A stretch of 50,700 nucleotides of DNA from Vulcanimicrobiota bacterium (GTDB lineage Bacteria; Vulcanimicrobiota; Vulcanimicrobiia; Vulcanimicrobiales; Vulcanimicrobiaceae). The stretch lies in contig JASHOM010000071.1 in the NCBI GenBank assembly GCA_030041115.1, forward strand, positions 1 through 50,700, read 5' to 3'. The number at the start of each line of letters is the position of its first letter. Within the stretch, counting starts at the first letter, position 1. Below, piece after piece: positions 12,850-31,299 of the stretch. The position numbers and the translations under genes are program-made. The notes under the pieces were generated by a model. The model saw nothing but the letters and a program-made list of their open reading frames with translations, ran no database searches and was not told the DNA's origin.

Positions 12850-13541
12850 GCCGGCGGTTCCTGGCCGCAGAGCGCGCGCAGCGCGCCGATGATCGCCAAC
12901 GGCGGCGGCGGGCATCCGGGCACGGTCAAGTCGACCGGCACCGCATCGGCGGCGCCGCCGGCGGACATGACGGACGGCCCGAAAATGCCGCCGCTGGCGG
13001 CGCAGGCGCCGACGGCAAGCACGCGCTTGGGCGACGGCATCGCCTCGTACGCGACCTTGAGCGGGCCGGCCATCTGCCGAGTGACCGGACCGACGACCAA
13101 AAGAACGTCGGCCTGACGAGGCGTCGGCGTGATGAAGATGCCGAAACGATGGAGATTGTACGAGGGTCCGGTCAGCTGTGCCAGCTCGTTCAAACACGAT
13201 CCGCAGTCGCCGGCGTCGATGATGCGAACGTGAATCGAATGCTTGAAGCGCGAGCCGAATCGTTCGACGGCGTCCGGATGCGCCCAGCGGACGTCATGGC
13301 GCCACTCCTGCGCCGATTTACAGCGCATGCAATCGACGCATCGATCCGGCTGGACGCCGACGACTCGGTCCTGAGCTTCGAGCGCGCCGGTCGGACAGCG
13401 CGCGGCGATCTCCGCGGCCTGCGCCGGCGTCGAAAACTCCGTGGCGCGCGGCAAACCCGGGGACAAGCTCTCCGGCAGCGCCTCGGGCGCGGGGCCTTCG
13501 GTCAAGACGCCGGCGCGCAGACCGCGCCAGAACCAGCTCAT
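12846..13541 (-). CDS. Ehr1: NuoB/HyfI-like small subunit with ferredoxin-like N-terminal segment
   Basis: MSWFWRGL...CPTGAL...CVDCMRC...DAGDCGSCLNE...VGACAASGGIF...VPGCPPPP: all four NuoB-type cluster cysteines retained. Confidence 0.85.
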   Translation of the reverse strand: MSWFWRGLRAGVLTEGPAPEALPESLSPGLPRATEFSTPAQAAEIAARCPTGALEAQDRVVGVQPDRCVDCMRCKSAQEWRHDVRWAHPDAVERFGSRFKHSIHVRIIDAGDCGSCLNELAQLTGPSYNLHRFGIFITPTPRQADVLLVVGPVTRQMAGPLKVAYEAMPSPKRVLAVGACAASGGIFGPSVMSAGGAADAVPVDLTVPGCPPPPLAIIGALRALCGQEPPA

Positions 13542-15097
13542 CGGTCGTTCTCCGCGACCGAAAGATCGAGCGTCGCCAGGACGATCGGGAAATCTTGAAA
13601 GGCGAAACTCTCCGTGGCAACGTGAAACCCGTGCCAATTCCGGAAGGACGGCGGCGTCAATCGATAGCGGCTTACGGTACCGTCCGCCTCGAGCTCGACC
13701 CATGCAAGCGAAGCTCCGCGCGGCGCCTCGCTCCAGCCCAGCCCGCGACCGGCACGCATCGCCGCGTCGATTCGCGTGCCGTCCGCGGGCAGATCGCGAC
13801 AGAGCGCGGCCATGATCCGCACCGACTCTTCCATCTCCGCAAACAGCACGCGTAAGCGGGCGTAGCCGTCGCCTTCCTCTTCGATCGGTACGTTGAACTC
13901 CAGACCGGAGTACGGAGCGTACGGCTGAACGGCGCGCATGTCGGCGGAGATCGCGGCCGCGCGGGCAAAGGGGCCGACCAGCTCGAAGGTTTGCGCGGCC
14001 TCGCGGTCGACGATGCCCACGCGTTCGATGCGGTCCAGAAAGCTGCTCGATCTTTCCAATGCGCCGCGCAGCGCGTCGACCTTCGGCCGCAGCGCGTCGG
14101 CTTTGCGCAGACACGCCTCCAACGCCGGATCGGCAAAGTCGCGCTGCAAGCCGCCGATCGCGAGCACGCCGAACAAATAGCGATGTCCGCAAAGCTCGCC
14201 GGAAATCCGCAGGAACTGCTCTTCCAGCCACAGCGCTTGGCTGGCCGCGACGGACAGCGACGTCGATTCGCAGATTTCACGGATCGACGTCATGTGATGG
14301 CGCAAGCGCTCGAGCTCGGCGAAAAATCCACGCAGCGCCTCGGACCGCCGCGTCAGCGTCGCACCGAGGGCGCGCTCGACGGCGCGGCAATACGCGAGTC
14401 CGTTGCCGATTGCGCTGGTTCCGGCACAACGCTCGGCGAGCAAGAGCGCGTCCGCGGCGGTGCGGCCCTGCGCGATCTTTTCGATCGCGCGATATTTGTA
14501 GAAAAGCCGCGGCGTCGCCCGGACCACGTCTTCGCCGACCGTCTCGAGGAGGAAGAGCGCCGATTCGGCTCCGCCGGAATAGACCGGACCGACCGGCATG
14601 ACGAACGCGCCTTCTTCTTCCAGAACGCGCTTGGGCCGCCATTCGCGCCGCTGCACCGGAAGATCCTCGCCGCTTTGAACGAACGGTCGCATCAAACCGG
14701 CGTTTTCGGCCCATTGATCGTCGTGCAAGACGAAATCTCCCAGGCGGGGATGCTGGGCAAAGCGGACCGAGAACAGATCCTCGATCTCGCGTTCGAACCA
14801 ATCGGCCGCAATCGTCACCGGGGTGAGGCTCGCAATCGTCCGGTCCACGGGATTGAGCGCGATGATCAGCTGCGCCCAACCCGGATGCGCGGTCGCGTAG
14901 AAGCAATAGCGCAGCTCGAGCTCGTGACGACCTTCCGTTGCGACGATCGTGCCCAGCCTCCAGCGTTGCGCGCTAAAATACTTCGCGACCGCCCGCAAGT
15001 CCTCACGCGGCAGTACGGCAACGATCGATCCGTCGTCGACGCGCCACTCGATCGACGGCCAAATGGAACGCAGGACGTTCAAGACGTCGCTCAGCAT
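13538..15097 (-). CDS. Ehr1: NuoCD/HyfG-like large subunit without [NiFe] ligands
   Basis: NuoC-like N-terminus (DWFEREIEDLFSVRFAQHP), then NuoD/HycE-like region; L1 position reads ERCAGTSAIGNGLAYCRAVE, C-terminus LATLDLSVAENDR has no CxxC. Confidence 0.85.
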   Translation of the reverse strand: MLSDVLNVLRSIWPSIEWRVDDGSIVAVLPREDLRAVAKYFSAQRWRLGTIVATEGRHELELRYCFYATAHPGWAQLIIALNPVDRTIASLTPVTIAADWFEREIEDLFSVRFAQHPRLGDFVLHDDQWAENAGLMRPFVQSGEDLPVQRREWRPKRVLEEEGAFVMPVGPVYSGGAESALFLLETVGEDVVRATPRLFYKYRAIEKIAQGRTAADALLLAERCAGTSAIGNGLAYCRAVERALGATLTRRSEALRGFFAELERLRHHMTSIREICESTSLSVAASQALWLEEQFLRISGELCGHRYLFGVLAIGGLQRDFADPALEACLRKADALRPKVDALRGALERSSSFLDRIERVGIVDREAAQTFELVGPFARAAAISADMRAVQPYAPYSGLEFNVPIEEEGDGYARLRVLFAEMEESVRIMAALCRDLPADGTRIDAAMRAGRGLGWSEAPRGASLAWVELEADGTVSRYRLTPPSFRNWHGFHVATESFAFQDFPIVLATLDLSVAENDR

Positions 15098-15099
15098 GC

Positions 15100-16524
15100 C
15101 TACGTACCCAAGACGCGCGCGGCGCTTTGCAGCACCGCGCCCAAGCCGCTGGGCATCCAAACGCCGAGCACGACGACCGGGATCGCTCCCAGAGCCAAGG
15201 CCCACAGACATGGCGCGGGCAACCGGATTCGTCCAGCCTCCGGCTCGCCGCCCACCATGTTCGTCACGTGACGGAGCAATCCGAAAAATGCCAGCACGAT
15301 GAAGACCGCAAGCAGCGCGATCGCGAGATAGAGATGCGCCAGGATTCCCGATTGGAGGATCGCCAGCTCGCTGAGAAAGACCGCGAACGGAGGCGCCCCG
15401 CCGATTGCGAGCGCACCGAGCAACAGGGCGGCCGCGGCCGCGCGGCTCGTTCCCAGCAAGCCTCGCACCCGGGCGATCTCGCGCGTTTCCGTGGCCATGA
15501 GCGCCGCGCCGGCCGCATAGAAACAGAACGATTTCGTAACGGCGTGCGCGAGCAACTGCCAGATGACGGCAACGTCGGCCGCCGGCGTGAAGATGCCCGC
15601 CGCCGCAATCACGATCCCCATGTGCTCGATGGTCGAAAACGCAAAGAGACGCTTGTAGTCGTGCGTTTGCACGATCAGAAATGCGGCGGTTCCGACCGAG
15701 AGCAGCCCGGCAACGAGAAACCAGGAACCGACGTGCAGCGCCGCGTCGCCTGCGAAGACGTCGCGCAGCCGGAGCAGCACGTAAAGAACCACGCTCGTTT
15801 CGATTCCGGAGAGCATGGCGCAAACGGGCGAGGGAGCTTGGCTGTGCGCGTCCGGCAGCCAGGTGTGCAGCGGCACGAGCCCGATCTTCGCTCCGTAGCC
15901 GACGAGCAGCAGCGCGAAGGCAACGCCCAGCAGCGCGTGCGGCATCCGGGCGGACGCTTCGCGCAGCCCGGTCCACGTGAAGTCGGTGCTTCCCGTGACG
16001 TGCAGTGCCCAGAAGAGCAACAGCACGCCCAATACGGCGATCGTCGCTCCCAGCAGCGTCAGCACCATGTACTTCCACGCCGCCTCGAGCGCTTCCACGC
16101 TCAACGCGTAGCTGACGAGCAGCACCGAGAGCAGCGTCGTCAGCTCGACGAAGATCCAGACGACGCCGATCTCGCTCAAGAGCGGGATGCACAGCATCGA
16201 GAACGCAAAGAAATTGAAATTCGCGTAATAGAGCCGGATGCGCTCGCCCGGCTCGCCTTTGAGATATCCCCACGAAAAGAGCGAAGCGGTCAGGTAAACG
16301 AGCGCGATCAACGCAAGGAAGAACGCCGCCAGCGAGTCGAGGCTGACCCAGTTGCGGACGAACACGATCGTGCCGCCGGCGCGTAGCGCGGTCAGCGGGA
16401 TCAGCGAAAATCCAAAGGTCAGCACCGAAGCGACGAACGTCACCCACGGCGCGGCCCGGTCGCTTCGTGGAACGGCACACCACAGCGCGGCGACCAGCGC
16501 GAGCAGCGGGGTGAACGCGATCAT
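15100..16524 (-). CDS. Ehr1: NuoN/HyfF-like antiporter-type membrane subunit
   Basis: VELTTLLSVLLVSYALSVEALEAAWKY; YGAKIGLVPLHTWLPDAHSQAPSPVCAMLSG; ATG 16524 in ATGA overlap with the upstream gene. Confidence 0.87.
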   Translation of the reverse strand: MIAFTPLLALVAALWCAVPRSDRAAPWVTFVASVLTFGFSLIPLTALRAGGTIVFVRNWVSLDSLAAFFLALIALVYLTASLFSWGYLKGEPGERIRLYYANFNFFAFSMLCIPLLSEIGVVWIFVELTTLLSVLLVSYALSVEALEAAWKYMVLTLLGATIAVLGVLLLFWALHVTGSTDFTWTGLREASARMPHALLGVAFALLLVGYGAKIGLVPLHTWLPDAHSQAPSPVCAMLSGIETSVVLYVLLRLRDVFAGDAALHVGSWFLVAGLLSVGTAAFLIVQTHDYKRLFAFSTIEHMGIVIAAAGIFTPAADVAVIWQLLAHAVTKSFCFYAAGAALMATETREIARVRGLLGTSRAAAAALLLGALAIGGAPPFAVFLSELAILQSGILAHLYLAIALLAVFIVLAFFGLLRHVTNMVGGEPEAGRIRLPAPCLWALALGAIPVVVLGVWMPSGLGAVLQSAARVLGT

Positions 16525-17189
16525 CGGATCCACTCCCGCAACGCCGCGAGGCCGCCCACTTCGGTCGTGCCGATGCGGCGATAGGCGGTTCGCGCGAGCA
16601 ATGCAACGATGAACGCGAGCAGCGGCACGTCGAACGCGATCGCGAGTTCGGCAATCAGAGGAAAGTCGGGCGCAACGGCGATTCCGGCGAGAAACGCCGC
16701 GTTCTCCATCGCGAGAATCCCGAGCAGCTGCGGCACGGCCTCCACGCGAACCGCAAGCAGAAACAGACCGACCAACAGACCGGCGACGCCCATCGCGAGG
16801 TTCCCCGCGGAGAGACTCGGCGCCGCGTGGATCAGCGGCTGCGCGAAGGCGTAGCCCACCAGCGTCAGCCCGAGCGAGATCAGCAGCGCGGCGGGGACGT
16901 CGATCGTCTGAGCGAGCTCGCGCCGTTGATTGATCTCACCCGGAACGAGCGCCCGGATCACCCACGGTATGATCACCACCTTGCTGAGCACCGTCACGCA
17001 CCCGAGCGCGACCAAGTGCCACGAAAGCGGCGAGGCACCCAGCAGAAAGGCCGATGCCGCCAGCAGCAGGGATTGCACGATGAACAACTGCATGCACGCG
17101 CCGATCTGACGCGTAACCGTCATTGCGATCGTCGCAATGATGAACAGGCCCAAGACCAGCGCGTTGAGCTCGACGATGATTCCGTTCAC
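16521..17189 (-). CDS. Ehr1: HyfE-like membrane subunit
   Basis: Hydrophobic ~222 aa protein; GTG 17189 (GTGA overlap); position in C-E-F-CD-I-B order; AMENAAFLAGI resembles the conserved LEN/MEN motif of NuoK/HyfE-type subunits. Confidence 0.8.
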   Translation of the reverse strand: MNGIIVELNALVLGLFIIATIAMTVTRQIGACMQLFIVQSLLLAASAFLLGASPLSWHLVALGCVTVLSKVVIIPWVIRALVPGEINQRRELAQTIDVPAALLISLGLTLVGYAFAQPLIHAAPSLSAGNLAMGVAGLLVGLFLLAVRVEAVPQLLGILAMENAAFLAGIAVAPDFPLIAELAIAFDVPLLAFIVALLARTAYRRIGTTEVGGLAALREWIR

Positions 17190-18136
17190 AGCCGCAGGAG
17201 CTCCGTTACCATCGCCGTCACCGAAACCACGAAGGCGGCGCCGAGAAACTCCGAGATTCGGAAGAGCCTCAGCTTCGCATACGACGACTCCACGACGACC
17301 ACGGCGACCACGAGCGCTACGATCTTGAGCGACACGGCTGCCGCGGCGCCGACGATCGCCACGATGCTCCCAGTGCTCGCCAACCCCCACGGTGTCGTGA
17401 GCACGTTGAGAAAGATGATCGCGAGCACCGTGAACTTCATGTAGCCGCCGTACTTCACCAGCGCGGCGGAGCGGCCGGAGAGCTCCAACGCCTTCGATTC
17501 GTCGATCATCGCGAGTTCGAAGTGCCCGCTGGGATTGTCGACCGGGATGCGCCCGGTTTCCGCTAAGATGATCATGAAAAAGGCGATCAGCAGCAGGATG
17601 TGAGACGGCGCGAAAAAGTTGGCGATCGGATGAACCCAGTGCTGCTGCACGATATACGGGATCGTCGAGTTCGCGATGAAGGAAACGGTAAAGAGCACGA
17701 CGATGATGACCGGCTCGGCGAGAAAGCCGACCATGCGCGTGCGGCTGGCTCCCATCGCGCCGTACGGATTGCCGGCATCGATCGCCGCCAGCGTAAAGAA
17801 GAGCCCGGACACGGCGAAAATGAAGCCGGCGGCCAGCATGTCTCCGGCGAAGGCGAGAAAGAGCGGGAAATCGGTCAATACCGGAATCAGCAGCGTGATG
17901 ATCAACGGCACGATGAAAATCAGATAGGGCGCCGTGCGGAAAAGCCAACTGCTCTCGGCCGATATTCGTTCGTCCTTGCCGAACAGCTTGCGAAGGTCCC
18001 GATACGGCTGAAAGATGCTCGGACCGCGCTTCGATTGGACGATCTCTTTGAGGCGCGCCAAGATGCCCGCAAAAAGCGGTGAAAGCAGCAGCACGAACGC
18101 AAGCTGCGCTAAATTGAGAGCGATGGACTCGGCCAT
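17186..18136 (-). CDS. Ehr1: NuoH/HyfC-like membrane subunit
   Basis: ARLKEIVQSKRGPSIFQPYRDLRKLFGKD; ILAETGRIPVDNPSGHFELAMIDE. ATG 18136 chosen because the upstream in-frame sequence (MELASAQAG...) is the riboswitch. Confidence 0.87.
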   Translation of the reverse strand: MAESIALNLAQLAFVLLLSPLFAGILARLKEIVQSKRGPSIFQPYRDLRKLFGKDERISAESSWLFRTAPYLIFIVPLIITLLIPVLTDFPLFLAFAGDMLAAGFIFAVSGLFFTLAAIDAGNPYGAMGASRTRMVGFLAEPVIIVVLFTVSFIANSTIPYIVQQHWVHPIANFFAPSHILLLIAFFMIILAETGRIPVDNPSGHFELAMIDESKALELSGRSAALVKYGGYMKFTVLAIIFLNVLTTPWGLASTGSIVAIVGAAAAVSLKIVALVVAVVVVESSYAKLRLFRISEFLGAAFVVSVTAMVTELLRL

Positions 18137-18171
18137 TGTATCGAGAGAGTTTCTCCTAGCGAGCGCCGTCG

Positions 18172-18219
18172 ACCTAGGAGCCATCATCCCTGCCTGGGCG
18201 CTCGCGAGCTCCATCGCGT
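18172..18219 (-). promoter_or_regulatory. fluoride riboswitch (crcB motif), copy A, upstream of Ehr1 operon
   Basis: Minus strand CGCGATGGAGCTCGCGAGCGCCCAGGCAGGGATGATGGCTCCTAG: P1 CGCG/CGCG, pseudoknot GGAGC/GCTCC, P3 CCC/GGG followed by ATGATGGC. Confidence 0.82.
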
Positions 18220-18229
18220 GTGATCAGGT

Positions 18230-19003
18230 GTGAGTATACAGAATCCGCCGCTATGCGGGCAAGAAGGAATAGCCGCCCGTAGGGAAGGATTAGCGCCATC
18301 CGGTGTCAACGGTCCGAGCGTGCCGCACAACGTTGGGGACTTTGCGAAGACAATCGACGTGCTCACGCACGATCTTCCCGGATCCGCACGAAGCCTTCTG
18401 GCGCACGCTCCCGATTCGGCAAACGTAACCGCTGACGTAACGGCATGCCTTCTCGGTCGCGATCTTTGGTATCCGCAATTAGCGGCCTTTCGCGATTGGC
18501 TGCTCGAAAGCGGCGAGCGGCCGCACTTGTGGACTTTCGATTTTTGTCCGTCCGGCGCGTGGAACTCCGCGCCTTGGAATGCCCTGTCGCTGCCGGCGCG
18601 AATCTTGCGAGCGCGAGCCGGCGCGGTGGATCGCGAAGTGCAGGGGCACGTGTCGCCGGTGAGCCTCGCGATGAAGCGCCGCGAATTCGAAGCCGGGCTC
18701 GCCGAGCTGGAGCGAGCCGGAGGCTACGGCGCGGATGCGCGAAGGTTTGCAGCGGTCGCCGCGCACGCCGATTTGCGGACCGACCTCTCGTTGATCGAAA
18801 TTCTGTCGCACTGGCTGGCCATGCTGAAGCACCGCGAAAAAGTGCTTGCGGACCGGCACGCCACCGGCTTTGAAGTGCACGGGTATCGCGAGGCGTGCTC
18901 CGCGTGCAAGACGCGTTGGGGCATTCGGCCGTTCGAGCCTCGATGGGCTCCGCCGTTCCACCCGGGATGCCGTTGCTTCTCACAACCACGATTCACGAAC
19001 TAG
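18230..19003 (+). CDS. hypothetical protein with C-terminal CxxC...HPGCRC motif (start uncertain)
   Basis: 257-aa ORF ending YREACSACKTRWGIRPFEPRWAPPFHPGCRCFSQPRFTN, divergent from Ehr1. Confidence 0.6.
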   Translation: MSIQNPPLCGQEGIAARREGLAPSGVNGPSVPHNVGDFAKTIDVLTHDLPGSARSLLAHAPDSANVTADVTACLLGRDLWYPQLAAFRDWLLESGERPHLWTFDFCPSGAWNSAPWNALSLPARILRARAGAVDREVQGHVSPVSLAMKRREFEAGLAELERAGGYGADARRFAAVAAHADLRTDLSLIEILSHWLAMLKHREKVLADRHATGFEVHGYREACSACKTRWGIRPFEPRWAPPFHPGCRCFSQPRFTN

Positions 19004-19440
19004 GGAAGCGTCGTGAACCCGTCGATGAGAAGAACCGGACAGTGCGCGTACCGCGCGATCCGGTCGGAAACGCTGCCGATCAAGAACCTCGTCATGCCCG
19101 ACAACCCGCGCCTCCCTACGATGATCAAATCGGCCCCGACCTTTCGAGCGGTGTCGACGACCGCTTCCGCCGGATGTCCGCCCTCGACGACGACCAGCTC
19201 GCTTTGTATTCCGTTTTGCGCCGCGGACTCAAGCAGATCTCGAGCTGCCGCTTCGTAAAACTGGCGAGCGTCTCGACGCGAGCTGTGACGCTCGTCCTGC
19301 GTCTCGGCGTGCTCGGCGTGCCGGGCCACCGAGATTAGCTGTAGCCGTGCGCCAAAGCGCTTGGCGATCTCGGCTCCGTAACTGAACGCGCGCCGCGCGT
19401 GATCGGAGCCGTCCCAAGCCACGATGATATGAGAGAACAT
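19000..19440 (-). CDS. universal stress protein, UspA family
   Basis: MFSHIIVAWDGSDHARRAFSYGAEIAKRFGARLQLISV ... DLIIVGRRGLSGMTRFLIGSVSDRIARYAHCPVLLI. Confidence 0.93.
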   Translation of the reverse strand: MFSHIIVAWDGSDHARRAFSYGAEIAKRFGARLQLISVARHAEHAETQDERHSSRRDARQFYEAAARDLLESAAQNGIQSELVVVEGGHPAEAVVDTARKVGADLIIVGRRGLSGMTRFLIGSVSDRIARYAHCPVLLIDGFTTLP

Positions 19441-19446
19441 ATGTAC

Positions 19447-21366
19447 CTACCAATGTCGAATCGACGGGTAAAGAGCGAGTAACAGAATCGTGAATACCAA
19501 GATGTACGTGAGGTACGCGGCGATGACTCCGGATTGCGTCGCGCGGATGAGGTCCGAAATCCGCAGAATCGCCGCGAACATGCGCCGATAAAAGGGAAGA
19601 CCGATGCGCTCCTTGGCGTTGAGGATGACTTGCGTCGGATGAGCGTAGCCGGTTCCGCTGTACTGCGTCCACGCCCGATATCGCTCGCCCGACGTCCAGA
19701 CCGCCGCGCGGGCCGCCGGCGGACGAGCGAACAGCCGCGACAGCACCCAGAACAAGGCCGTGAATCCGGCAATGACTGCGGCCAAGCCGGGCGCGGATAT
19801 GGATGAGAAGCCGCTGAAGGCAGGTTGAACGAGCGGGACGGTTCCGACGATCGCCCGCATGACGCCGGTTCGGGCGATTGACGCGACGGCCGGCCCGAGG
19901 CGATCGAGGATCGGGCTCGAGAAAATTCCGGCTCCGACGATCGCCGACGATCCCGCCGCTAACGCCGTCAATCGCCATGGCGAACGGGTTTCGCGCGCTT
20001 GGGCGGCCTGCGGCGACCTCGGCGCGCCCAGCAATCCGGCGCCGAGCAGCTTCGTGACCGCGACGACGGCAACGCCGGCGGTGATACCGATGAGCGCACC
20101 GGCCACCGCAAAGATCACTTCGAAGGTAACGTTGCCGGTACGAAAGGCCTGCATGAACGACTCCAGCACAAGCCATTCCGCAACGAAGCCGGCCGTGGGC
20201 GGCAGCGCCGCGAGCGACATTGCACACAGCAGAACCGCAATCGTCGTCACCGGCATGACCCGCCCCAGACCTCCCAAACGATCGATCGACGCCGTCGAAC
20301 AGGCGCTCGATATCGAGCTGATCGCGAGAAAGAGCGTGGACTTGGCGAGCGCGTGGGCGAGAATCTGCGCGTATGCCGCCGCGATGCCCAGCCCAACGAG
20401 CACGTCCAAGTGCAGGATTTTTGCCGCTACCGCCACTCCCAGCGCCGCAAGGATGACGCCGCCGTTTTCGACGCTCGAATAGGCTGCCAATCGCCGCATG
20501 TCGCGTTGAATGACCGCCCACGAGATCCCGAGGAACGCCGAAAGCGCTCCGAGGACGATGGCGAGAACGGCGAACCATACCGGCGGATCCGGAAAGCCCA
20601 CGATGAATCGCACGACCCCATAGAAGCCGACGTTCAACGCACCTCCGGCCATGAGAGCCGCGACCAAAGAGGGCGCGGCGCGATAGCCGTACGGCATCCA
20701 GACCTGCAGCGGCAGCAAGCCGAACTTCGCGCCGAAGCCGATCAGCAAGAGCAGCAAGAGCACGCCGCGCACCGCGGCGTCGAGCGTCGCTCCGCTGGCG
20801 ACGACCGGACCGACGCCGAAGCCGTGTGCCGCATTTGCCAAGAAGAGCAGCGCGCCGATGAGGCACGCTCCGGCAACGTGAGTGATGCCGATCGTGAGAT
20901 ACGCAGCCGTGGCCGAATCGGAGTCGGTGCCGCAATATGCGATGGCCCAGAAAAAGACGAGCGCGAGAAGCTCCCACGCAAAGACGAAGAACAGCACGTC
21001 CCCGGCGCAGCAACACAACAGCGAAGCAAAGGCAATGGCGTTTGCCGTGGCGCTCGTCGTCCGGCCCGTGCCGCGTTCGTCCTTCGTCGCGGGACCTAGC
21101 CCGAAGATCGCGACGAGCGCCGCCACGACGCCGATGGTTCCGGCGAAAAAGGCCGCGGTGCCGTCGAAGTAGAGGACCGTATGAAGGTTCGCATCGCCGA
21201 ACGCAAGCGGAGTTGCGCCGAGCTGCCGAATGGACGCATCGCAGGTTGCTAGTGCTCCGAAGCCGAGAAAGACGAAGCCGGCGGTTCGTCCGGCGCGGCC
21301 GGGTAGAACGATGGCTGCCGCCGTTCCGACGAGATAGCACGCGAACGCAGCGATCAGGACGATCAC
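19447..21366 (-). CDS. Ehr2: NuoL/HyfB-like antiporter-type membrane subunit
   Basis: GTG 21366 (GTGA overlap); FVFAWELLALVFFW; GFGAKFGLLPLQVWMPYGYRAAPSLVAALMAG; HALAKSTLFLA. Confidence 0.83.
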   Translation of the reverse strand: MIVLIAAFACYLVGTAAAIVLPGRAGRTAGFVFLGFGALATCDASIRQLGATPLAFGDANLHTVLYFDGTAAFFAGTIGVVAALVAIFGLGPATKDERGTGRTTSATANAIAFASLLCCCAGDVLFFVFAWELLALVFFWAIAYCGTDSDSATAAYLTIGITHVAGACLIGALLFLANAAHGFGVGPVVASGATLDAAVRGVLLLLLLIGFGAKFGLLPLQVWMPYGYRAAPSLVAALMAGGALNVGFYGVVRFIVGFPDPPVWFAVLAIVLGALSAFLGISWAVIQRDMRRLAAYSSVENGGVILAALGVAVAAKILHLDVLVGLGIAAAYAQILAHALAKSTLFLAISSISSACSTASIDRLGGLGRVMPVTTIAVLLCAMSLAALPPTAGFVAEWLVLESFMQAFRTGNVTFEVIFAVAGALIGITAGVAVVAVTKLLGAGLLGAPRSPQAAQARETRSPWRLTALAAGSSAIVGAGIFSSPILDRLGPAVASIARTGVMRAIVGTVPLVQPAFSGFSSISAPGLAAVIAGFTALFWVLSRLFARPPAARAAVWTSGERYRAWTQYSGTGYAHPTQVILNAKERIGLPFYRRMFAAILRISDLIRATQSGVIAAYLTYILVFTILLLALYPSIRHW

Positions 21367-22103
21367 GAACGGCCTCTTGCCGCCGCATACCCGAGCGCGA
21401 CCCAAAGACCGTGTAGAATGGTCAGGGGCGACGGCGGCGTCCCGGGGATGAACACGTCGACGGGCAGCACGTCGCTGACCGGACCCAAAACGGCGATGCT
21501 GCGCGAAAAGATGCCGCCCGAACATGCCGACGTTCCCAGCGCAACGACCAGCTTGGGCTGCGGCATGGCCTCGTGGGCCGCAAGCAACGGCTGGGCCATC
21601 GCCCGGGTGACGACCCCGGTGACCACGAGCACGTCGGCATGGCGAGGCGTCGCGGTCAGGAAAATTCCCAACCGGTTTGCATCGTAGAACGGGTTGAAGA
21701 TTGCTTGAAGCTCCTGCTCCTCCGAGCCGTCACTGCCGGCGTCGACGTGACGAAGATGAACGGAGCGGCCCAACCCGCGCACTCGTTCGCGCAGCAGGGA
21801 TCGCACCTCGTCCGGGTTGCCCGCCACTTCGGCCAACTCGAACTCGTTTCGCATGCCGAACGCCTCGGGCGACCGGCGCGCGCACTCCCCGCATTGAAAG
21901 CAACGCTTGCGATCGACGCGCGCTCGCGCGCCGGCCGCGGTGAGCGCGCTCGACAGGCAGGCGCCGGCACCGAGAGCCTGCGCTTCGACGTTCGCCGGCA
22001 GGCTCTCGACCGCGCCGCGATAGGCGGGCGCCATCGAATCGGCCCGCAGCGGGTAACGCGTGCTGAGGATGCCGCGACGCAGACTATATCCGATCCAACT
22101 CAT
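21363..22103 (-). CDS. Ehr2: NuoB/HyfI-like small subunit lacking the four NuoB-type cluster cysteines
   Basis: MSWIGYSLRRG...CFQCGEC...HVDAGSDGSEEQEL...NRLGIFLTATPRHADVLVVTGVVTRAMAQPLL...ALGTSACSGGIF...VFIPGTPPSP. Confidence 0.83.
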   Translation of the reverse strand: MSWIGYSLRRGILSTRYPLRADSMAPAYRGAVESLPANVEAQALGAGACLSSALTAAGARARVDRKRCFQCGECARRSPEAFGMRNEFELAEVAGNPDEVRSLLRERVRGLGRSVHLRHVDAGSDGSEEQELQAIFNPFYDANRLGIFLTATPRHADVLVVTGVVTRAMAQPLLAAHEAMPQPKLVVALGTSACSGGIFSRSIAVLGPVSDVLPVDVFIPGTPPSPLTILHGLWVALGYAAARGRS

Positions 22104-23464
22104 CGGTCGACCTCGGACTGGCTGGCGGCAAACGAGTGCTCGATGAAGGAAAAGTCGGTAAAGATATTTCCCGGTAACGACGGGACGAAGAGCGGCCAGT
22201 TCGCGTACGACGGCGGTCGAATCGCTACCCGCATCAGGCGGCCGCCCTCGATTCGAACGAAGTAGATGAGCTCGCCCTGGGGAGCCTCCACTCGCGCGAA
22301 TCCGCAGCCGTCGCGCGGCGCGGCCTTCGCGAGCCAATCGCCCGGCGGATTGGCGCTGAGCGCATTTCGAATCAGCTGAAACGAGCGCTGAATTTCGGCC
22401 GCCCGTACGAGTGCTCGCGCGGCGGCGTCGCCGTTGCTTTCCAGCACCTCTTCGCCGGTCAGCGGCGTGTAGAAGTAATCGTCCCCGGTGCGAGCGTCGC
22501 ACGAAACGCCGCTGCCGCGCGCGACCGGACCCACCGCGCCGAAGCGAACGACCTGCTCGTAGGTGAGCTTGCCGGCTCCAATCAAACGATCGAGCAAGGA
22601 CTGCGTCGAAACGAGAGTTTGCACGACGCTGCGCGCATGTCGTTCGACCTCTTCCAATTCCCGGTCGCATGCTTCGCGCAGCGACGCGAGCACGTCGAAG
22701 CGAGTGCCGCCGACGCAGCAAACGCCGCGGCCGAAACGATGCCCCGTCCCGGCGGCGAGCAGACGATGCACCCGTTCCTTCGCGGCAAACGTTTGCGCCG
22801 AGCCGACCGACAGCGAACCGTCGTCGGCAAGCTTTCCTAACGAGTCGAGATGCTGCGCTACGCGTTCGAGCTCGACGAGCACCGAGCGGGCGGCGCGGGC
22901 GCGCTCGGGCACGTGCACGTCGGCCACCGTTTCGACCGCCCGGCAAAACGCGGCGGCGTGACTGGAGGCGGTCGCCCCGGAAACGTGCTCGGCGACGAAC
23001 GGCGCCAGTTCGAGCTCGACGCCCACGAAACGTTCCTCCAACCCACGATGCTTGAAGAACATCGACGGCGCCACTTCGACGAAGGTCTCGCCCGCCGTGT
23101 CGATCGTCCAACGCGCCGACTCGACGATCCCGGAGCGGATCGGCCCGTACAACACGGTCGAGATTTCCGGCGACTCCCGCTTTCGCAGTTCGTCCGGCGG
23201 CTCGACGCGGACCAGCGGCCGGTCGTCGCTCAGGTTTTCGAACTCGAGTCCGAAACGGTCGCGTATCTCCCGCTCGTACCACTCCGCCGCGGGCGTCACC
23301 GGAGTCAACGATTGTACGCTGCCGGCCGCATCGCTGCCGACGTCAACGAGCGAAGCACCGTTGGCGAAAACGTAGTGCAGTCGCGTCTGCCGACCGATCC
23401 GGTCGGCGAATATCCAGGCTAATCGCTCGCCTCCGGCAACGCGGCTGCGCGCTTGCGCGCTCAT
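22100..23464 (-). CDS. Ehr2: NuoCD/HyfG-like large subunit without [NiFe] ligands
   Basis: ATG 23464; AEWYEREIRDRFGLEFENLSDDRPL (NuoC-like); L1 position EHVSGATASSHAAAFCRAVE; C-terminus DFSFIEHSFAASQSEVDR with no CxxC. Confidence 0.83.
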   Translation of the reverse strand: MSAQARSRVAGGERLAWIFADRIGRQTRLHYVFANGASLVDVGSDAAGSVQSLTPVTPAAEWYEREIRDRFGLEFENLSDDRPLVRVEPPDELRKRESPEISTVLYGPIRSGIVESARWTIDTAGETFVEVAPSMFFKHRGLEERFVGVELELAPFVAEHVSGATASSHAAAFCRAVETVADVHVPERARAARSVLVELERVAQHLDSLGKLADDGSLSVGSAQTFAAKERVHRLLAAGTGHRFGRGVCCVGGTRFDVLASLREACDRELEEVERHARSVVQTLVSTQSLLDRLIGAGKLTYEQVVRFGAVGPVARGSGVSCDARTGDDYFYTPLTGEEVLESNGDAAARALVRAAEIQRSFQLIRNALSANPPGDWLAKAAPRDGCGFARVEAPQGELIYFVRIEGGRLMRVAIRPPSYANWPLFVPSLPGNIFTDFSFIEHSFAASQSEVDR

Positions 23465-24906
23465 TGCCGCCCCGCAAAGATAGCCGCCGCGTTCGTCAGG
23501 AGAACCCGCAAGGGCGGCGGCACGAACAATCCGAGGCCGAGCACGACGGCAAATGCCAGAAACATCGAAGCGATCGCTCCGACGTCGCGCTCGCCGCACG
23601 GCATGTCCGCGGGCGGCGACCCGACGGTTACTCGCGTCGTCCAGCGCATCAGACCCGCAAATGCCGTAACGAGCAATCCCAGGACGACCGCCGCCACGAC
23701 CCATCTGCCGCTGTCGAAGCCGCCGGAGAGCACCATGAGTTCGCTGCGGAACAATCCGAAAGGCGGAAGTCCCGCGAGGGCGAGCCCCGCAAAGGCGAAG
23801 AGCGTTCCCGACGCCGGAAGCACCGCAACGCCCCCGCTGATCTTCGAGATCTCGCGCGTGTCGAAGCGCGCGGCGAGGCGCCCGGCTCCGAAGAACGCCA
23901 GCGCTTTGGTCGCGGCGTGATTGATCACGTGGAGCAATGCGCCGGTCACGGCGAGCCGGGCACCGAAGGCGAGGCCGCAGGCAATGAGCCCCATGTGCTC
24001 GATGCTCGAATAGGCGAGCATTCGTTTCAGATCGCGCTGCTGCAGCAGGAAGAACGCGCCGACGAAAAGCGAGAGCAGGCCGACGACGAAGAACAAGTGG
24101 AGCGTCAATCCGCTGCCGGCCGCGGCGTTCGCGATGGCGGCAAAACGAACGATGACGTACAAAGCATCGGATAGCAGCACGCCGGAGAGCATGGCGCTGG
24201 TGGGCGTCGGCCCGGCACCGTGGGCATCGGGAAGCCAGGTGTGCATGGGCGCCAAGCCGGCCTTGGTTCCGAAGCCGATGAGCGCCAGCATGAAGGCGAG
24301 CCGCACGGCGTCCTGATTCAGTTTGCCGGCAACGCTCATGTACGCGGTCCAGCTCGGCGCGTAGTGTGCCGGGAGGACCCCGGTTCCGGCCGCATACATC
24401 ACCACGACTCCGAGCAAGCCGATCGCCAACCCGCACGAAGCGATCAAGATGTACTTCCAGGCCGCTTCGAGCGCATTTTCGGTGCCCTGAAGCCGGACGA
24501 GAAGTGCGGCCACGATCGTGGTGACTTCGAGCGCGACCCACATGCCGGCCAGATTCGTCAGCAGCGGAACGACCGTTTCGGCGCATGCGAAGGCGTTCGT
24601 GAGCGCGAGAAATTCGCGACGGTACGCCTCGTCTCCGTCGACCCCTATCGCCTCGACGCGCACGTACCACGTGCCGTAGAGCCCGACGGTGCCGTAGACG
24701 ATCGCAACCGGCAGCAGAAAAACGGCCGAAAGCGCGTCGAGAGGCCCCGCACCCGCGGCGGTGCGCACGACGGCCGCCAGTATGCAACCGGCGGTGACGA
24801 GACCGCCGGCGGCCGTGCAGACGCGTCCTATGCGCGAGGGAACGAGCAGCGTCACGAACGCGAGCACGAGAGGAACGGCGATCGCCGTTGCGATGATTGC
24901 GTTCAT
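23461..24906 (-). CDS. Ehr2: NuoN/HyfF-like antiporter-type membrane subunit
   Basis: GFGTKAGLAPMHTWLPDAHGAGPTPTSAMLSGVLLSDALYVIVRF; YSSIEHMGLIACGLAFG. Confidence 0.87.
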   Translation of the reverse strand: MNAIIATAIAVPLVLAFVTLLVPSRIGRVCTAAGGLVTAGCILAAVVRTAAGAGPLDALSAVFLLPVAIVYGTVGLYGTWYVRVEAIGVDGDEAYRREFLALTNAFACAETVVPLLTNLAGMWVALEVTTIVAALLVRLQGTENALEAAWKYILIASCGLAIGLLGVVVMYAAGTGVLPAHYAPSWTAYMSVAGKLNQDAVRLAFMLALIGFGTKAGLAPMHTWLPDAHGAGPTPTSAMLSGVLLSDALYVIVRFAAIANAAAGSGLTLHLFFVVGLLSLFVGAFFLLQQRDLKRMLAYSSIEHMGLIACGLAFGARLAVTGALLHVINHAATKALAFFGAGRLAARFDTREISKISGGVAVLPASGTLFAFAGLALAGLPPFGLFRSELMVLSGGFDSGRWVVAAVVLGLLVTAFAGLMRWTTRVTVGSPPADMPCGERDVGAIASMFLAFAVVLGLGLFVPPPLRVLLTNAAAIFAGRQ

Positions 24907-25574
24907 CCGCGCAACCGTTGGAAGACGGCGATGCCGGCGGCGTCATGCCGCTCGACCAGCGCCCGCACGAGCACGCCGAAGACCACGACGGCAACGAGCG
25001 CGTCCAAGAGCAGCAACACGCCGATGATGAACGGCAGGCCCGGAGCCAAAGTAACGGTCCCGAAGAACAGTCCGTCCTCGAGCGTGAGGAAGGCGATGAC
25101 TTGGGCCAGCGCGTTGGGCCGCAAGATGGCGACGAGGAAGCCGACGAAGACCATCGACAGCGCCGTTGCCAAGTCGGCCTGCGGCAAAAATGCCCCTTGA
25201 TGAAGCGGAAGCTGAATCGAGGTCAGTACGGCCAGGCCGATGAGCGCGCCGGCGAGCAAAAGCGACGCGAGCACGTTGATTCGAGCGGGAAGCTCGACGC
25301 GCGACGATATGTTGCGAACCAGTCCTTGCATGTAACGCGGCAACAGCGTCCCCTTGAAAACGATGGTGAGAACGGCCAAGAGCAAGAGATCCCAGGCCCA
25401 TCCCTCCGTCACGCCCACTCCAAAGCAGATGGCGGCTACGAGCCACGCTTGAATCGCATACACGCGAATGAACTCGGCGATGACCATCGATCGAAAAAGC
25501 GAAAGCTGCACGAGCAGCAAGAGCATCGCTATGGTTCCGGCAAAGGCTTCCGGAACGGTCAGCTGGTGCAGCAT
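24903..25574 (-). CDS. Ehr2: HyfE-like membrane subunit
   Basis: Hydrophobic 223 aa; FLTLEDGLFFGTV near the conserved LEN position; ATGA overlaps on both sides. Confidence 0.78.
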   Translation of the reverse strand: MLHQLTVPEAFAGTIAMLLLLVQLSLFRSMVIAEFIRVYAIQAWLVAAICFGVGVTEGWAWDLLLLAVLTIVFKGTLLPRYMQGLVRNISSRVELPARINVLASLLLAGALIGLAVLTSIQLPLHQGAFLPQADLATALSMVFVGFLVAILRPNALAQVIAFLTLEDGLFFGTVTLAPGLPFIIGVLLLLDALVAVVVFGVLVRALVERHDAAGIAVFQRLRG

Positions 25575-26533
25575 CAGCCGACGCCCACGACATAGGCGAA
25601 GATGGCTATCAGCGCCACGAGAAGCCCGGTCCCGATGAATTCGGTGATCTTGTAAAGCCGCAGCTTGGCGAAGGTCGTCTCGATGGCGGCGACCACGACG
25701 CCCAGGGCCAGCATCTTCGCAAAAAGACTAACGATCGCGAATGCCACCGATGCCACGCTGCCGCTCGACGAAAGGCCCATCGGCAGCAGCAACACGTTGA
25801 GGAAGACGGTGTAAAGCAAGAACTGCTTCATCGAGCCGCCCCATTTGTAGAGCGCCATCCAGGGGCCCGAATGCTCGAAGAGCCGCGCGTCGTCGATCAT
25901 TCCGAACTCGATCGTCGCGGACGAGCTCTCGATCGGAATCCGTCCGGTGTCGACCAGCAGCATCATGAAAAAGGCGGCGGCGGCCAGAACGTGCGCGGGG
26001 CGCAGTACGTCGGCGGCGGAATGTCGCAACGCGGCGTTCAGTGCGTACGGCAGGTCGGTGCCGGTAATGAAAGCAACCGAAAAGAAGACGAAAATGAGCG
26101 TCGGCTCGACCAAGACGCCGACCATGACCGCGCGACTGCTGCCGATGTGTGCGTACTGCGAGCCGGAATCCAACGCCGCGAGCGCCGTCGCAAAGCCGGC
26201 GAGCGCCAGAACGAACGCGCCGCCGAGAATATCCCCGTAGGTCGCGCCCGGAAGCGGATACGTCGTAAGAACCGGAATGAGCGTTGCAACCGTCGCGTAG
26301 CAGCCGCACGCGACGAACGGCGCCGCTCGAAAAATCCAAGACGACGGTTCCGGAATGATCGCCTGCTTCCGAAAGAGCTTGAGGATGTCCCGGTACACCT
26401 GAAATATCGACGGCCCGTAACGCCCCTGAATTATCGCTTCGAGCCGAGCGATGCAGCCGGTAAGCAACGGCGAAAGCAGCAGCAGGCACAAAACCTGCGC
26501 GGCTTGGACCAAAATCGGACTTAGGGTTGCCAC
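25574..26533 (-). CDS. Ehr2: NuoH/HyfC-like membrane subunit
   Basis: GTG 26533; ARLEAIIQGRYGPSIFQVYRDILKLFRKQ; LLVDTGRIPIESSSATIEFGMIDD. Confidence 0.87.
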   Translation of the reverse strand: MATLSPILVQAAQVLCLLLLSPLLTGCIARLEAIIQGRYGPSIFQVYRDILKLFRKQAIIPEPSSWIFRAAPFVACGCYATVATLIPVLTTYPLPGATYGDILGGAFVLALAGFATALAALDSGSQYAHIGSSRAVMVGVLVEPTLIFVFFSVAFITGTDLPYALNAALRHSAADVLRPAHVLAAAAFFMMLLVDTGRIPIESSSATIEFGMIDDARLFEHSGPWMALYKWGGSMKQFLLYTVFLNVLLLPMGLSSSGSVASVAFAIVSLFAKMLALGVVVAAIETTFAKLRLYKITEFIGTGLLVALIAIFAYVVGVG

Positions 26534-26562: not shown

Positions 26563-26606
26563 CTTCACGAATGCTCCGACAAAAGCGGTTGCTTTGTCAG
26601 GAGCCA
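26563..26606 (-). promoter_or_regulatory. putative expression-platform hairpin of copy C
   Basis: Minus strand GCTCC-TGACAAAGC-AACC-GCTTTTGTC-GGAGC; its 5' arm is the aptamer pseudoknot strand. Confidence 0.6.
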
Positions 26607-26663
26607 TTGGCCTTTGCAGCAGTTTGCGCTGCCGAAAGCAGCTCCGGCGGACTCCTCCGCCGC
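26597..26663 (-). promoter_or_regulatory. divergent fluoride riboswitch (crcB motif), copy C, upstream of Ehr2 operon
   Basis: Minus strand GGCGGAGGAGTCCGCC ... AAAGGCCAATGGCTCCTG: P1 GGCGG/CCGCC, AGGAG/CTCCT pseudoknot; extra internal hairpin GCTGC-TTTCG-GCAGC; P3 not canonical. Confidence 0.6.
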
Positions 26664-26706
26664 TATTGCCTTTCGAGTGCTTTGCGAGCGATACCTTTGC
26701 AATCCG

Positions 26707-27009: not shown

Positions 27010-27020
27010 GATTCCTCCAC

Positions 27021-27073
27021 GCAGGAGCCATCAGCCGCAGCCTGCGACCAATCACGGCGAGCCCCATCGCCCG
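27021..27073 (-). promoter_or_regulatory. fluoride riboswitch (crcB motif), copy D
   Basis: Minus strand GGGCGATGGGGCTCGCCGTGATTGGTCGCAGGCTGCGGCTGATGGCTCCTGCG: P1 GGCG/CGCC, pseudoknot GGGGC/GCTCC, P3 GTCGC/GCGGC. Confidence 0.87.
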
Positions 27074-27169
27074 ATCGGTCGCACTTCGCACAAGGTTGAG
27101 CGGGTCCTCTACGTAACGCCGCTTCGACGAACAGGTTTGCGCGATATCGACGCAAATATAAAGGACCGT

Positions 27170-27222
27170 ACGGCGATGGAGCTCGCCCGCGAGCGTCGCA
27201 AACCGGCGACTAACGGCTCCTG
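27170..27222 (+). promoter_or_regulatory. fluoride riboswitch (crcB motif), copy E, upstream of MutS-like pair
   Basis: CGGCGATGGAGCTCGCCCGCGAGCGTCGCAAACCGGCGACTAACGGCTCCTGG: P1 GGCG/CGCC, P3 GTCGC/GCGAC, pseudoknot GGAGC/GCTCC. Confidence 0.85.
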
Positions 27223-27241
27223 GATTACGGGGACACCATCG

Positions 27242-28771
27242 ATGACTTTCCACAGCATCCTTTACGACCGATCGGCTCCTGCGGTCGCCGACATGGGCGC
27301 GACGCCCGAGTGCATTCGCGACCTCAACATCGATCAGATCATCGATGCGATCGTGCGGGGAAGGGAGGAGTACGATCTCGCGCCCTTCTTTCTGATGCCG
27401 CTGGCCACGATGGAAGCCGTCGGCTACCGGCACGAAGTCATGCGCGATCTCCAAGAAGGCGCCGTGCTCGAGTGCGTCGCCGAGTTCGCCGATGCGATGC
27501 GATCGACGCGGAAGATCCTCGCGCACTCCGCCAAGCTCCGAACTCACCAACAGACGCGCTTGTTTCTCGATGCCGTGCGTGCGTACGACGCGGCCGTCGT
27601 TCGTTTGTGCGAGAAACTCGAGCGCTCCAGCGCCAAATCGGCGGGGCTTCGCGCTTTCTGTGCGTTCCTCGCCGCGTACGTGCAGTCCGAGCAATTTCGG
27701 GCTCGAACTTCGGCTTCCGGCGCGCTGCTCCGGGAGCTCGATGCGATTCGCTATTCCGTTCGCATCAAGGAAAACACCGTCACGGTGGGGCGCTACGAGG
27801 ACCGTCCCGACTATAGCGACGAGGTCGCGCGGACGTTCGAGAAATTCAATCAAGGGGAAGTGCGCGACTACCTCGTCGCCGGCCGCGATTCCATCGAGAT
27901 GAATCACGTCGAGGAACGCATCCTCGCGCTGGTGGCGCGGCTGTTTCCGGCGACGTTTGCGAAATTGACGGAATTCGAAGAGCATCATCGCAGTTTCGTC
28001 GACGCGACCGTGACGCGGTTCGACCGCGAGATACAATTCTACCTCGCGTACCTCGAATACATGAACGAATTTGCGGCCTCGGGCTTGTCGTTTTGTTATC
28101 CGCACGTCTCGACCGACGGCGGCGACAGCGCCGTTCGGGACACCTTCGATGCGGCTCTCGCCAAGAGGCTGCGCGACGCCGGGCGTGAGGTCGTGGTCAA
28201 CGACTTCGCACTGACCGGCGGGGAACGCGTCCTCATCGTATCGGGGCCGAACCAAGGGGGCAAGAGCACCTTCGCTCGCACGTTCGGTCAGGTGCACCAT
28301 TTTGCAAGCATCGGTTGCCCGGTCGCAGGCAGCGCGGCGCGGATCGCCCTGTTCGACCGGATCTTCACGCATTTCGAGCGGGAGGAGCGGGTCGAAAGCC
28401 TTCGCAGCAAGCTGGAGGACGATCTGCTCCGGATGCGCGACATTTTGCGCGACGCAAGCGAACGCAGCATCGTCATCTTGAATGAAATCTTTGCATCGAC
28501 GACGCGCAGCGACGCCTATTGGCTCGGACGGCAGATGCTGGCCAAGATCTTGAGGATCGGAGCGCGTTGCGTCTGCGTTACGTTCCTCAACGAGCTGGCG
28601 CACGGAGACGATCGGATCGTCAACATGGTGAGCACGGTGGTTGCGGACAACCCCGCTGTGCGAACGTTCAAGGTGGTCCGGCGCGCCGCGGGCGAACCTT
28701 CGTATGCCGCCACGCTCGCGGAAAAGCACCGGCTGACGCACGATTTGGTAAAAGCTAGAATACGATCATGA
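27242..28771 (+). CDS. MutS-like ATPase (MutS domain V type), first of pair
   Basis: ATG 27242 (MTFHSILYD); Walker A GPNQGGKSTFARTFGQ, Walker B SIVILNEIFASTTRSD. Confidence 0.88.
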   Translation: MTFHSILYDRSAPAVADMGATPECIRDLNIDQIIDAIVRGREEYDLAPFFLMPLATMEAVGYRHEVMRDLQEGAVLECVAEFADAMRSTRKILAHSAKLRTHQQTRLFLDAVRAYDAAVVRLCEKLERSSAKSAGLRAFCAFLAAYVQSEQFRARTSASGALLRELDAIRYSVRIKENTVTVGRYEDRPDYSDEVARTFEKFNQGEVRDYLVAGRDSIEMNHVEERILALVARLFPATFAKLTEFEEHHRSFVDATVTRFDREIQFYLAYLEYMNEFAASGLSFCYPHVSTDGGDSAVRDTFDAALAKRLRDAGREVVVNDFALTGGERVLIVSGPNQGGKSTFARTFGQVHHFASIGCPVAGSAARIALFDRIFTHFEREERVESLRSKLEDDLLRMRDILRDASERSIVILNEIFASTTRSDAYWLGRQMLAKILRIGARCVCVTFLNELAHGDDRIVNMVSTVVADNPAVRTFKVVRRAAGEPSYAATLAEKHRLTHDLVKARIRS

Positions 28772-30294: not shown

Positions 30295-30908
30295 CTTCGT
30301 CCGATCGCAGCGGCCCGGCGTACCGCGATCGAGGTCCGCGCAAGACTGACCGCGCCGCGACCGATCAAGCTGCGCATCGCGCGCTCGACGTGCTCCACCA
30401 GCGCCGAGCGCAAGCGCTGCTCGAGCTCGGCGATCCATCCGTCGATCTCCGCAAAGGAGCAGGCCGCGTCCGGAAGGATCTCCCGCTCGTCGTCCACCTC
30501 TATCCGCGGCAACGCAATTCTTCGCGGCGGGCGGGGCGGCTTCGCGAGATCGCCGGCTCCTTGCGCGGCGGCTCGGACGAAGCGCTCCTGCGCTGCGAGC
30601 AAGGCTTCCGCATAGAATCCAAAGCGCGCCCGGAACCGCACGCCGGCATTTTCGAACGCCATCTGAGCGCAACGCATGGCCACCAGCTCCGAATGGCTGC
30701 GGGTCAGAGCCGCGCTCAAGTCCGGAGCGAGCGTGCCCAGCGAGAGGAAATGGTCCGCGAGCTCTTCGCGCGCCCGCCGCACGGGCTTCGCAACGAAACG
30801 ATCGAGCGTCGAAAGATCGGTTCGACAGCCGGACTCGAGCACCACGCGCGCCGCGGCTTCATCGTCGCGAAGGATCTGCCAGGCGGCGTTGACACGGTCA
30901 GCCGTCAT
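30246..30908 (-). CDS. helical hypothetical protein, second gene under riboswitch copy B
   Basis: 220 aa; ATG 30908 overlaps the upstream gene end by 11 nt; convergent with MutS-like 2 (49-nt overlap). Confidence 0.65.
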   Translation of the reverse strand: MTADRVNAAWQILRDDEAAARVVLESGCRTDLSTLDRFVAKPVRRAREELADHFLSLGTLAPDLSAALTRSHSELVAMRCAQMAFENAGVRFRARFGFYAEALLAAQERFVRAAAQGAGDLAKPPRPPRRIALPRIEVDDEREILPDAACSFAEIDGWIAELEQRLRSALVEHVERAMRSLIGRGAVSLARTSIAVRRAAAIGRSQGGTVVAPASSKMRS

Positions 30909-31230
30909 CGAGAACGATCGCCGCGTCGTCGAAGAACAGGTCCTCTACGGTTTCGTGCTGACGCAAGCGAGTTTTGAGCTCGGCAATTCGCGCTTGCAGC
31001 TCCTTGGCCCGGCCCAAAATGACCTCGCGGCCGGCAAAGGCGCCCGCGTTGCGCATGCGCTCCGTTTTGAGCTTGCGCATCGATTCCTGGAGCTCGAAAT
31101 GCTCGCTGGCATAATGGCGCTCGATTTCGTAAAGCCTGCCGCTGCGCTCTTGGAGTTTCTCGTTCGCCCACTGCAGCCGAGCCTCGAGATCTCGGCAACG
31201 CTCCTGCAGTTCGGCGACTTGATCGGCCAC
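30898..31230 (-). CDS. coiled-coil protein, first gene under riboswitch copy B
   Basis: GTG 31230; MADQVAELQERCRDLEARLQWANEKLQERSGRLYEIERHYASEHFELQESMRKLK heptad-rich. Confidence 0.65.
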   Translation of the reverse strand: MADQVAELQERCRDLEARLQWANEKLQERSGRLYEIERHYASEHFELQESMRKLKTERMRNAGAFAGREVILGRAKELQARIAELKTRLRQHETVEDLFFDDAAIVLDDG

Positions 31231-31248
31231 GACCTAACCTCACTCTCG

Positions 31249-31299
31249 TTGAGGAGCCATCAGCCTTTTTGGCGCTTGTTCGGCGAGCTCCATCGCCCT
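31249..31299 (-). promoter_or_regulatory. fluoride riboswitch (crcB motif), copy B, upstream of coiled-coil pair
   Basis: Minus strand AGGGCGATGGAGCTCGCCGAACAAGCGCCAAAAAGGCTGATGGCTCCTCAA: P1 GGCG/CGCC, P3 GCC-AAAAA-GGC, pseudoknot GGAGC/GCTCC; very close to the canonical aptamer. Confidence 0.9.

Follow-up and report, generated by a model that had tools for sequence, protein, structure and literature searches.

The window (the whole stretch of DNA analysed, 50,700 nucleotides of contig JASHOM010000071.1 from a Vulcanimicrobiota bacterium) contains an island with fluoride-riboswitch matches and two operons for complex-I-like membrane complexes, Ehr1 and Ehr2, Ehr having reportedly been defined in Marreiros 2013 and Coppi 2005. 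The genome to which it belongs is 2.6 Mb in 222 contigs and 95% complete. Six genes on the minus strand, spanning 19447-26533, encode the Ehr2 complex. The features of the island are as follows.

10714..18136, minus strand: Ehr1 operon, the second complex of the island, six genes; N2 ligands intact, [NiFe] ligands lost
18168..18227, minus strand: fluoride-riboswitch match, 26.2 bits, sub-threshold; directly upstream of the Ehr1 operon
19000..19440, minus strand: universal stress protein (Pfam PF00582), last gene of the Ehr2 operon; recurs in related islands
19447..21366, minus strand: Ehr2 antiporter-like subunit 2, HyfB/NuoL-like; E132, K214, H338 and K342 invariant
21363..22103, minus strand: Ehr2 small subunit, NuoB/HycG-like (Pfam PF01058) with a fused N-terminal single-cluster ferredoxin domain (Fer4_13)
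22100..23464, minus strand: Ehr2 large subunit, NuoC/D, HycE-like; S162, T165, S448 and E451 at the [NiFe] ligand positions; R110
23461..24906, minus strand: Ehr2 antiporter-like subunit 1, HyfF/NuoM/N-like; E127, K215 and K334 invariant
24903..25574, minus strand: Ehr2 HyfE-like (NuoK-like) subunit; E166 invariant
25574..26533, minus strand: Ehr2 NuoH-like subunit, first gene of the operon
26591..26670, minus strand: fluoride-riboswitch match, 20.5 bits, sub-threshold; directly upstream of the Ehr2 operon, a position that recurs in other Ehr2 operons
27015..27080, minus strand: fluoride-riboswitch match, 32.2 bits, just sub-threshold; upstream of a 100-aa ORF and the Ehr2 operon
27163..27229, plus strand: fluoride-riboswitch match, 22.9 bits, sub-threshold; 12 nt before the MutS-like pair
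27242..28771, plus strand: MutS-like ATPase A (Pfam MutS_V)
28768..30294, plus strand: MutS-like ATPase B (Pfam MutS_V)
30246..31230, minus strand: two conserved island proteins of 110 aa and 220 aa, no Pfam family
31244..31306, minus strand: fluoride riboswitch, 39.4 bits, above the gathering score
31355..31453, plus strand: fluoride-riboswitch match, 28.6 bits, sub-threshold; upstream of the NUDIX and dynamin-like genes
31419..31937, plus strand: NUDIX hydrolase; start uncertain, overlapping the riboswitch match as drawn
31934..33634, plus strand: dynamin-family GTPase

The small subunit of Ehr2 is an open reading frame of 246 aa that aligns with HycG (7z0s) and MbhJ (6cfw) free of gaps across the motif regions. 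The HycG motifs GGCNGCE, GACGNSGG and PGCPP correspond in Ehr2 to GSDGSEE, GTSACSGG and PGTPP, placing D125, E128, S192 and T222 at the cysteine positions of the N2-type [4Fe-4S] cluster. None of the four is a cysteine, and the alignment bears out the earlier note, which had read all four NuoB-type ligands as lost. The protein thereby lacks the conserved cysteines of the NuoB/HycG family and retains the PF01058 fold (Pfam, 82 bits). The AF2 model is confident (pLDDT 87, pTM 0.85) and Foldseek matches it to MbhJ at 1.4 Å over 131 columns, the nearest solved structures being those of formate hydrogenlyase (FHL), Mbh and complex I. NCBIfam named no Ehr2 protein above its cut-off.

Within the small subunit Cys49, Cys68, Cys71 and Cys74 are invariant among orthologs and form a CP...CxxCxxC motif for one [4Fe-4S] cluster. 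This arrangement, combining the last cysteine of the first ferredoxin motif with the CxxCxxC of the second, is the pattern of complex I cluster N6b. The CFQCGEC reported earlier as remaining is indeed present, although as described it is incomplete and belongs to this four-cysteine set. Calling Ehr2 'redox-dead' was too strong for a protein with an invariant N6b-like [4Fe-4S] motif. Two candidates for replacement N2 ligands were rejected: the 'shifted' Cys194, because it is not conserved in orthologs, and CFQCGEC, where Cys68/71/74 with Cys49 already constitute a complete set.

The [NiFe] site is missing from the large subunit, as had been proposed. S162, T165, S448 and E451 occupy the positions of the four cysteines of a group 4 [NiFe] hydrogenase, and these positions are non-cysteine in essentially all of 80 orthologs. 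Arg110 is of the Ehr2 type in all 79 of 79 large subunits, where hydrogenases and NuoD have His. The [NiFe] cysteines are also missing from the large subunits of Ehr1, of a further copy on contig C105 of the same genome, and of a relative in Caballeronia. A search for the [NiFe] maturation protein HypD found none in the window's own genome (at its 95% completeness) and none in 11 of 22 Ehr2 genomes.

The membrane arm, by contrast with Ehr2's lost ligands, is intact. Residues of the ion path align to those of solved antiporter-like subunits and are invariant or nearly so across 43-76 orthologs per subunit: E132, K214, H338 and K342 of the NuoL-like subunit, E127, K215, K294 and K334 of the HyfF-like subunit, E166 of the HyfE-like subunit, and E202, E209 and E220 of the NuoH-like subunit. 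The Glu/Lys ion path typical of Mrp-type subunits is therefore present twice, as E132/K214/K342 and E127/K215/K334.

The ligand loss recurs in homologs, the parallel loss for which the earlier note had suggested looking. A search of the phylum recovered 13 Ehr2 orthologs in Eremiobacterota genomes that share at least 56% identity, whereas Ehr1-type genes reach about 40%; ligand 1 is Asp in 13/13, nine have no ligand cysteine and four have the second cysteine only. Scanning of genome contigs yielded 117 confirmed relatives, 80 of which were kept; these come from Eremiobacterota, one Chloroflexi and mostly Actinomycetota, including Streptomyces, Amycolatopsis, Micromonospora and Aciditerrimonas. 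No ligand cysteine is present in 78 of the 80 loci and one of four in the other 2, with Asp/Glu/Asp/Ser at the ligand positions in most Actinomycetota. Between close relatives dN/dS is 0.18-0.24. The absence of the cysteines from a single metagenome-type contig might have reflected a sequencing, assembly or pseudogene artefact; since about 80 independent loci, drawn from isolates and MAGs in three phyla, show like loss, and since frames are intact and selection is purifying (dN/dS ~0.2), that explanation is refuted and its residual probability is negligible.

When the ligand columns were excluded from tree building, the Eremiobacterota Ehr2 sequences (100/99) and the Actinomycetota sequences (99/97) fell into separate clades, whose junction is moderately supported (85/76). 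Parsimony requires at least three losses of the N2 ligands, and graded states were observed, with 3/4 cysteines in L155, 2/4 in L150-L153, 1/4 in L012-L015, and 0/4. Loci L150-L153, from Actinomycetota, have fluoride riboswitches nearby; of the N2 cysteines they retain the first two, and they read CGPACGGG, with the cysteine shifted, and PGSPP. A distant Ehr small subunit from another family of the phylum (L033 / L164, G131:C9, 1318-2085) has independently lost all four ligands, reading PGHPP and AGASAISG, and has two intact ferredoxin-type motifs; a fluoride riboswitch was not found on its 10.9-kb contig.

The Rfam fluoride-riboswitch model RF01734 (gathering score 34) has six matches in the window, one above the curated threshold and five that score lower yet preserve the greater part of the conserved core. 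All six immediately precede a gene or operon: the Ehr1 and Ehr2 operons, the MutS-like pair, the NUDIX/dynamin genes and two small ORFs. Searching with an aptamer-core pattern gave three matches against none in shuffled sequence. The matches at 26591-26670 and 27015-27080, neither of which reaches the Rfam threshold, stand directly 5' of the Ehr2 operon as expected for a member of the regulon. The 100-aa ORF directly behind the latter (26707-27009, minus strand) appears membrane-like by eye and has no Pfam family, and no homolog of it was seen in annotated islands.

Linkage was quantified with Rfam's own model in a phylum sample of 149 Eremiobacterota genomes. RF01734 has a match no more than 10 kb from 12/13 Ehr2 genes, 10/15 Ehr1-type genes and 1/122 other NuoB-type genes, the single Ehr2 gene lacking it being on a 4.7-kb contig; within 20 kb the counts are 12/13, 12/15 and 2/122 (Ehr2 versus others, Fisher p = 2.5e-14). 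At the level of genomes it is present in 13/13 with Ehr2, 12/12 with Ehr1-type genes and 53/128 others. A strict hand-made regular expression modelled on the Eremiobacterota aptamer failed to find most of those in Actinomycetota, and a covariance model built from Eremiobacterota and window aptamers was used instead. Its E-values are rough because its structure, an RNAalifold consensus, has pseudoknot pairing in place of P1. On the 80 loci this model gave a match at E <= 0.01 in 42, and 22 matches directly before the Ehr2 operon where 1.5 were expected (P ~1e-19); some long-flanked Actinomycetota loci gave no match. Whole-genome searches placed RF01734 in 44/52 Ehr2 genomes (16/16 and 28/36, being undetected in 8 of the latter set), against a background of 82/346 in an Actinomycetota sample. 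The 10.7-Mb genome of Amycolatopsis sp. 2-2 has four detected riboswitches, every one of them no more than ~9 kb from Ehr2. Membership of Ehr2 in the fluoride-riboswitch regulon is nearly certain.

Riboswitches were also found by cmsearch in plasmid islands of Caballeronia and of Mycobacterium branderi, whose small subunit is annotated only as 'ferredoxin'. The latter plasmid, pJCM12687 (L144, 864 kb, linear), carries a complete island with a MobF relaxase gene nearby, which suggests that the whole set can move.

Recurrent neighbours were identified by ORF clustering over the 80 loci and assigned to families by Pfam. They comprise two MutS-domain-V ATPases, the universal stress protein, DUF190, two CrcB, enolase, a histidine-phosphatase (phosphoglycerate-mutase-like), a dynamin-like GTPase, NUDIX, DegV and an MFS protein, several of which are gene kinds known from fluoride-riboswitch operons. 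Neither a formate dehydrogenase nor a partner oxidoreductase recurs in these 80 loci or in annotated islands. A functional precedent for the neighbourhood is the fluoride-riboswitch operon of Enterobacter cloacae FRM (ppaC-uspA-eno-gpmA-crcB), in which uspA, eno, gpmA and crcB are induced by fluoride and were shown by knockout to be needed for resistance (PMC5533749). The Ehr2 islands share with it RF01734, uspA, enolase, a phosphoglycerate-mutase-like gene and crcB; that operon is without complex-I-like genes, whereas the islands add these together with the MutS-like pair, dynamin and NUDIX. Three window proteins with no Pfam family, of 257 aa (18230-19003, plus strand), 220 aa (30246-30908, minus strand) and 110 aa (30898-31230, minus strand), recur in other Eremiobacterota fluoride islands. 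Glycosidase and branching/debranching-like ORFs, recognised by eye, flank the island at 6103-10699 and 33707-37947, and it looks as though the island was inserted between genes of glycogen/starch type.

Ehr2 has the subunit set by which Ehr complexes are defined, that of group 4 hydrogenases with antiporter-like subunits and without the [NiFe] CxxC motifs (PMC6349859, PMC10284858), and differs in the additional loss of the N2-type ligands and in its tie to fluoride riboswitches. The proximal/N2 cluster retained in Ehr1 is lost in Ehr2. With respiratory complex I, Ehr2 shares the PF01058 small-subunit fold, a NuoD-like large subunit and the antiporter residues, but it has no N2 ligands, no NADH module and only two antiporter-like subunits. 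Mrp Na+/H+ antiporters, which work without redox, have membrane subunits of the same family with conserved ion-path residues; unlike them, Ehr2 still possesses hydrophilic NuoB/NuoD-like subunits.

Since there is neither a [NiFe] site nor an N2-type cluster, the usual electron route in Ehr2 is closed. Conventional electron transfer to the membrane arm via N2 is not possible, in line with the earlier note's view that it looks impossible, and electrons are left without the usual path to the membrane-adjacent site. Because the complex is free of these cofactors, yet conserved in more than 100 loci and placed under fluoride-sensing RNA switches, it is probably an ion transporter for fluoride survival and not a hydrogen- or electron-processing enzyme. 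Rather likely, in our judgement, is that Ehr2 acts as a fluoride-induced ion-translocating complex of the Mrp/complex-I type, not driven by N2 electrons, that protects pH and ion balance. Fluoride riboswitches would switch on the operon together with the fluoride-stress regulon, and a six-subunit complex with an intact membrane arm would assemble lacking both redox sites. It would translocate ions (H+, probably against a monovalent cation) unpowered by N2 redox chemistry, and would restore cytoplasmic pH and ion balance once HF has entered and dissociated. The vacated N2 pocket is now oxygen-rich and acidic, with D/E/S/T in the window and D/E/D/S in most Actinomycetota; it may bind protons or a metal, or act as a gate, and fluoride would select for the ion-translocating arm. 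Assembly, redox-independent ion movement and the role of the pocket are what we infer from the genes. Redox-independent translocation, one of several options raised earlier, has thus become the leading idea, with ligand loss under purifying selection and membrane-arm residues intact. A 2024 review places Na+/H+ antiporters as the next-commonest riboswitch-linked class after exporters, because HF acidifies the cytoplasm (PMC11139923).

N2-intact and N2-less forms occupy like islands and the loss is graded and repeated; N2 therefore seems dispensable for the task common to both, which favours ion translocation without N2 electron flow. By the same token, the family may have a redox role, since neither Ehr1 nor the relative in Caballeronia has lost any N2 ligand, although both belong to riboswitch islands of this kind. 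Counting against ion transport, the invariant four-cysteine [4Fe-4S] motif needs a reason if no electrons are transferred. The sub-threshold scores of five of the six window matches, and the loci and genomes in which no riboswitch was detected, weigh on the same side. The main rival accordingly holds that Ehr2 is still redox-active, handing electrons on to some acceptor, from either the N6b-like cluster or a new non-[4Fe-4S] metal centre held in the Asp/Glu/Asp/Ser pocket, and pumping ions as it does so. The invariance of Cys49/68/71/74, the strong conservation of acidic replacements at ligands 1-3 (D/E/D/S in most Actinomycetota) and the N2-intact relatives in the same islands speak for such a role. 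It is nevertheless somewhat unlikely, given that no partner oxidoreductase recurs, that, on the established geometry of complex I, an N6b-type cluster would sit a long way from the former active site, and that ligand 4 varies (T/A/S/M) as a metal ligand would not. A bolder form of the ion-transport reading, which we consider doubtful, would make the former N2 site, with its Asp/Glu/Asp/Ser residues, a metal-fluoride or proton-sensing pocket gating a redox-free, complex-I-shaped ion transporter widespread in soil actinobacteria; if true, this would be a complex-I-family machine driven by ion gradients and fluoride and not by electrons.

Databases and reviews name such genes as formate hydrogenlyase or hydrogenase. 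Weinberg et al. reported in 2010 that the motif precedes mutS and genes for formate hydrogen lyase (PMC2864571), and the 2024 review lists formate hydrogen lyase among the commonest riboswitch-associated enzymes, tied to anaerobic formate metabolism (PMC11139923). E. coli formate hydrogenlyase (Hyc) and P. furiosus Mbh are indeed the best or near-best sequence and fold matches for the small, large and antiporter-like subunits, and FHL subunits are the closest solved relatives. Ehr2 differs from them in having no [NiFe] site, no proximal cluster and no formate dehydrogenase among its recurring neighbours. With the [NiFe] ligands and, in Ehr2, the four proximal-cluster ligands missing, and HypD not found in half of the genomes tested, the island complexes cannot be formate hydrogenlyases, and we regard a true formate hydrogenlyase or hydrogenase as extremely improbable. 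The riboswitch-linked 'formate hydrogen lyase' complexes of the examined islands are thus without a hydrogenase site, and a large clade is also without the last iron-sulfur cluster, which points to ion and pH homeostasis under fluoride. Ehr2 would represent a natural relative of complex I in which selection went on maintaining the membrane arm once the redox core had been lost, giving a direct way to ask what the arm does alone; cultured hosts include Streptomyces, Amycolatopsis and Micromonospora.

A structural or regulatory partnership with Ehr1, or an inactive duplicate of it, had also been considered. The two complexes lie side by side in the window under common riboswitch regulation, and the Ehr1 small subunit (12846-13541) retains 4/4 N2 cysteines, in agreement with the first description. 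However, no Ehr1-type gene was seen in 9 of the 13 Ehr2 genomes of the phylum sample, Ehr2 of Actinomycetota sits in islands of the same type, the two proteins are distant (43% identity, separate clades), and each complex has a full set of membrane subunits. The partnership is rejected on this distribution and is now quite improbable.

Retained N2 cysteines were likewise found in the genome's true NuoB and in its third Ehr-type complex (L157, G000:C105, 1-6997), which is followed by two tandem NuoL-like genes on a 10.7-kb contig where a riboswitch was not found. On a Rhizobium leguminosarum plasmid (L146), a Hyf-like operon without the ferredoxin domain keeps the N2 ligands and has largely lost the [NiFe] ligands; it adjoins YcaO and TfuA genes, and a fluoride riboswitch was not found there. 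The Chloroflexi locus (L042) contains at 18417-19260 a second NuoH-like gene with its own upstream riboswitch, probably a second complex truncated by the contig end.
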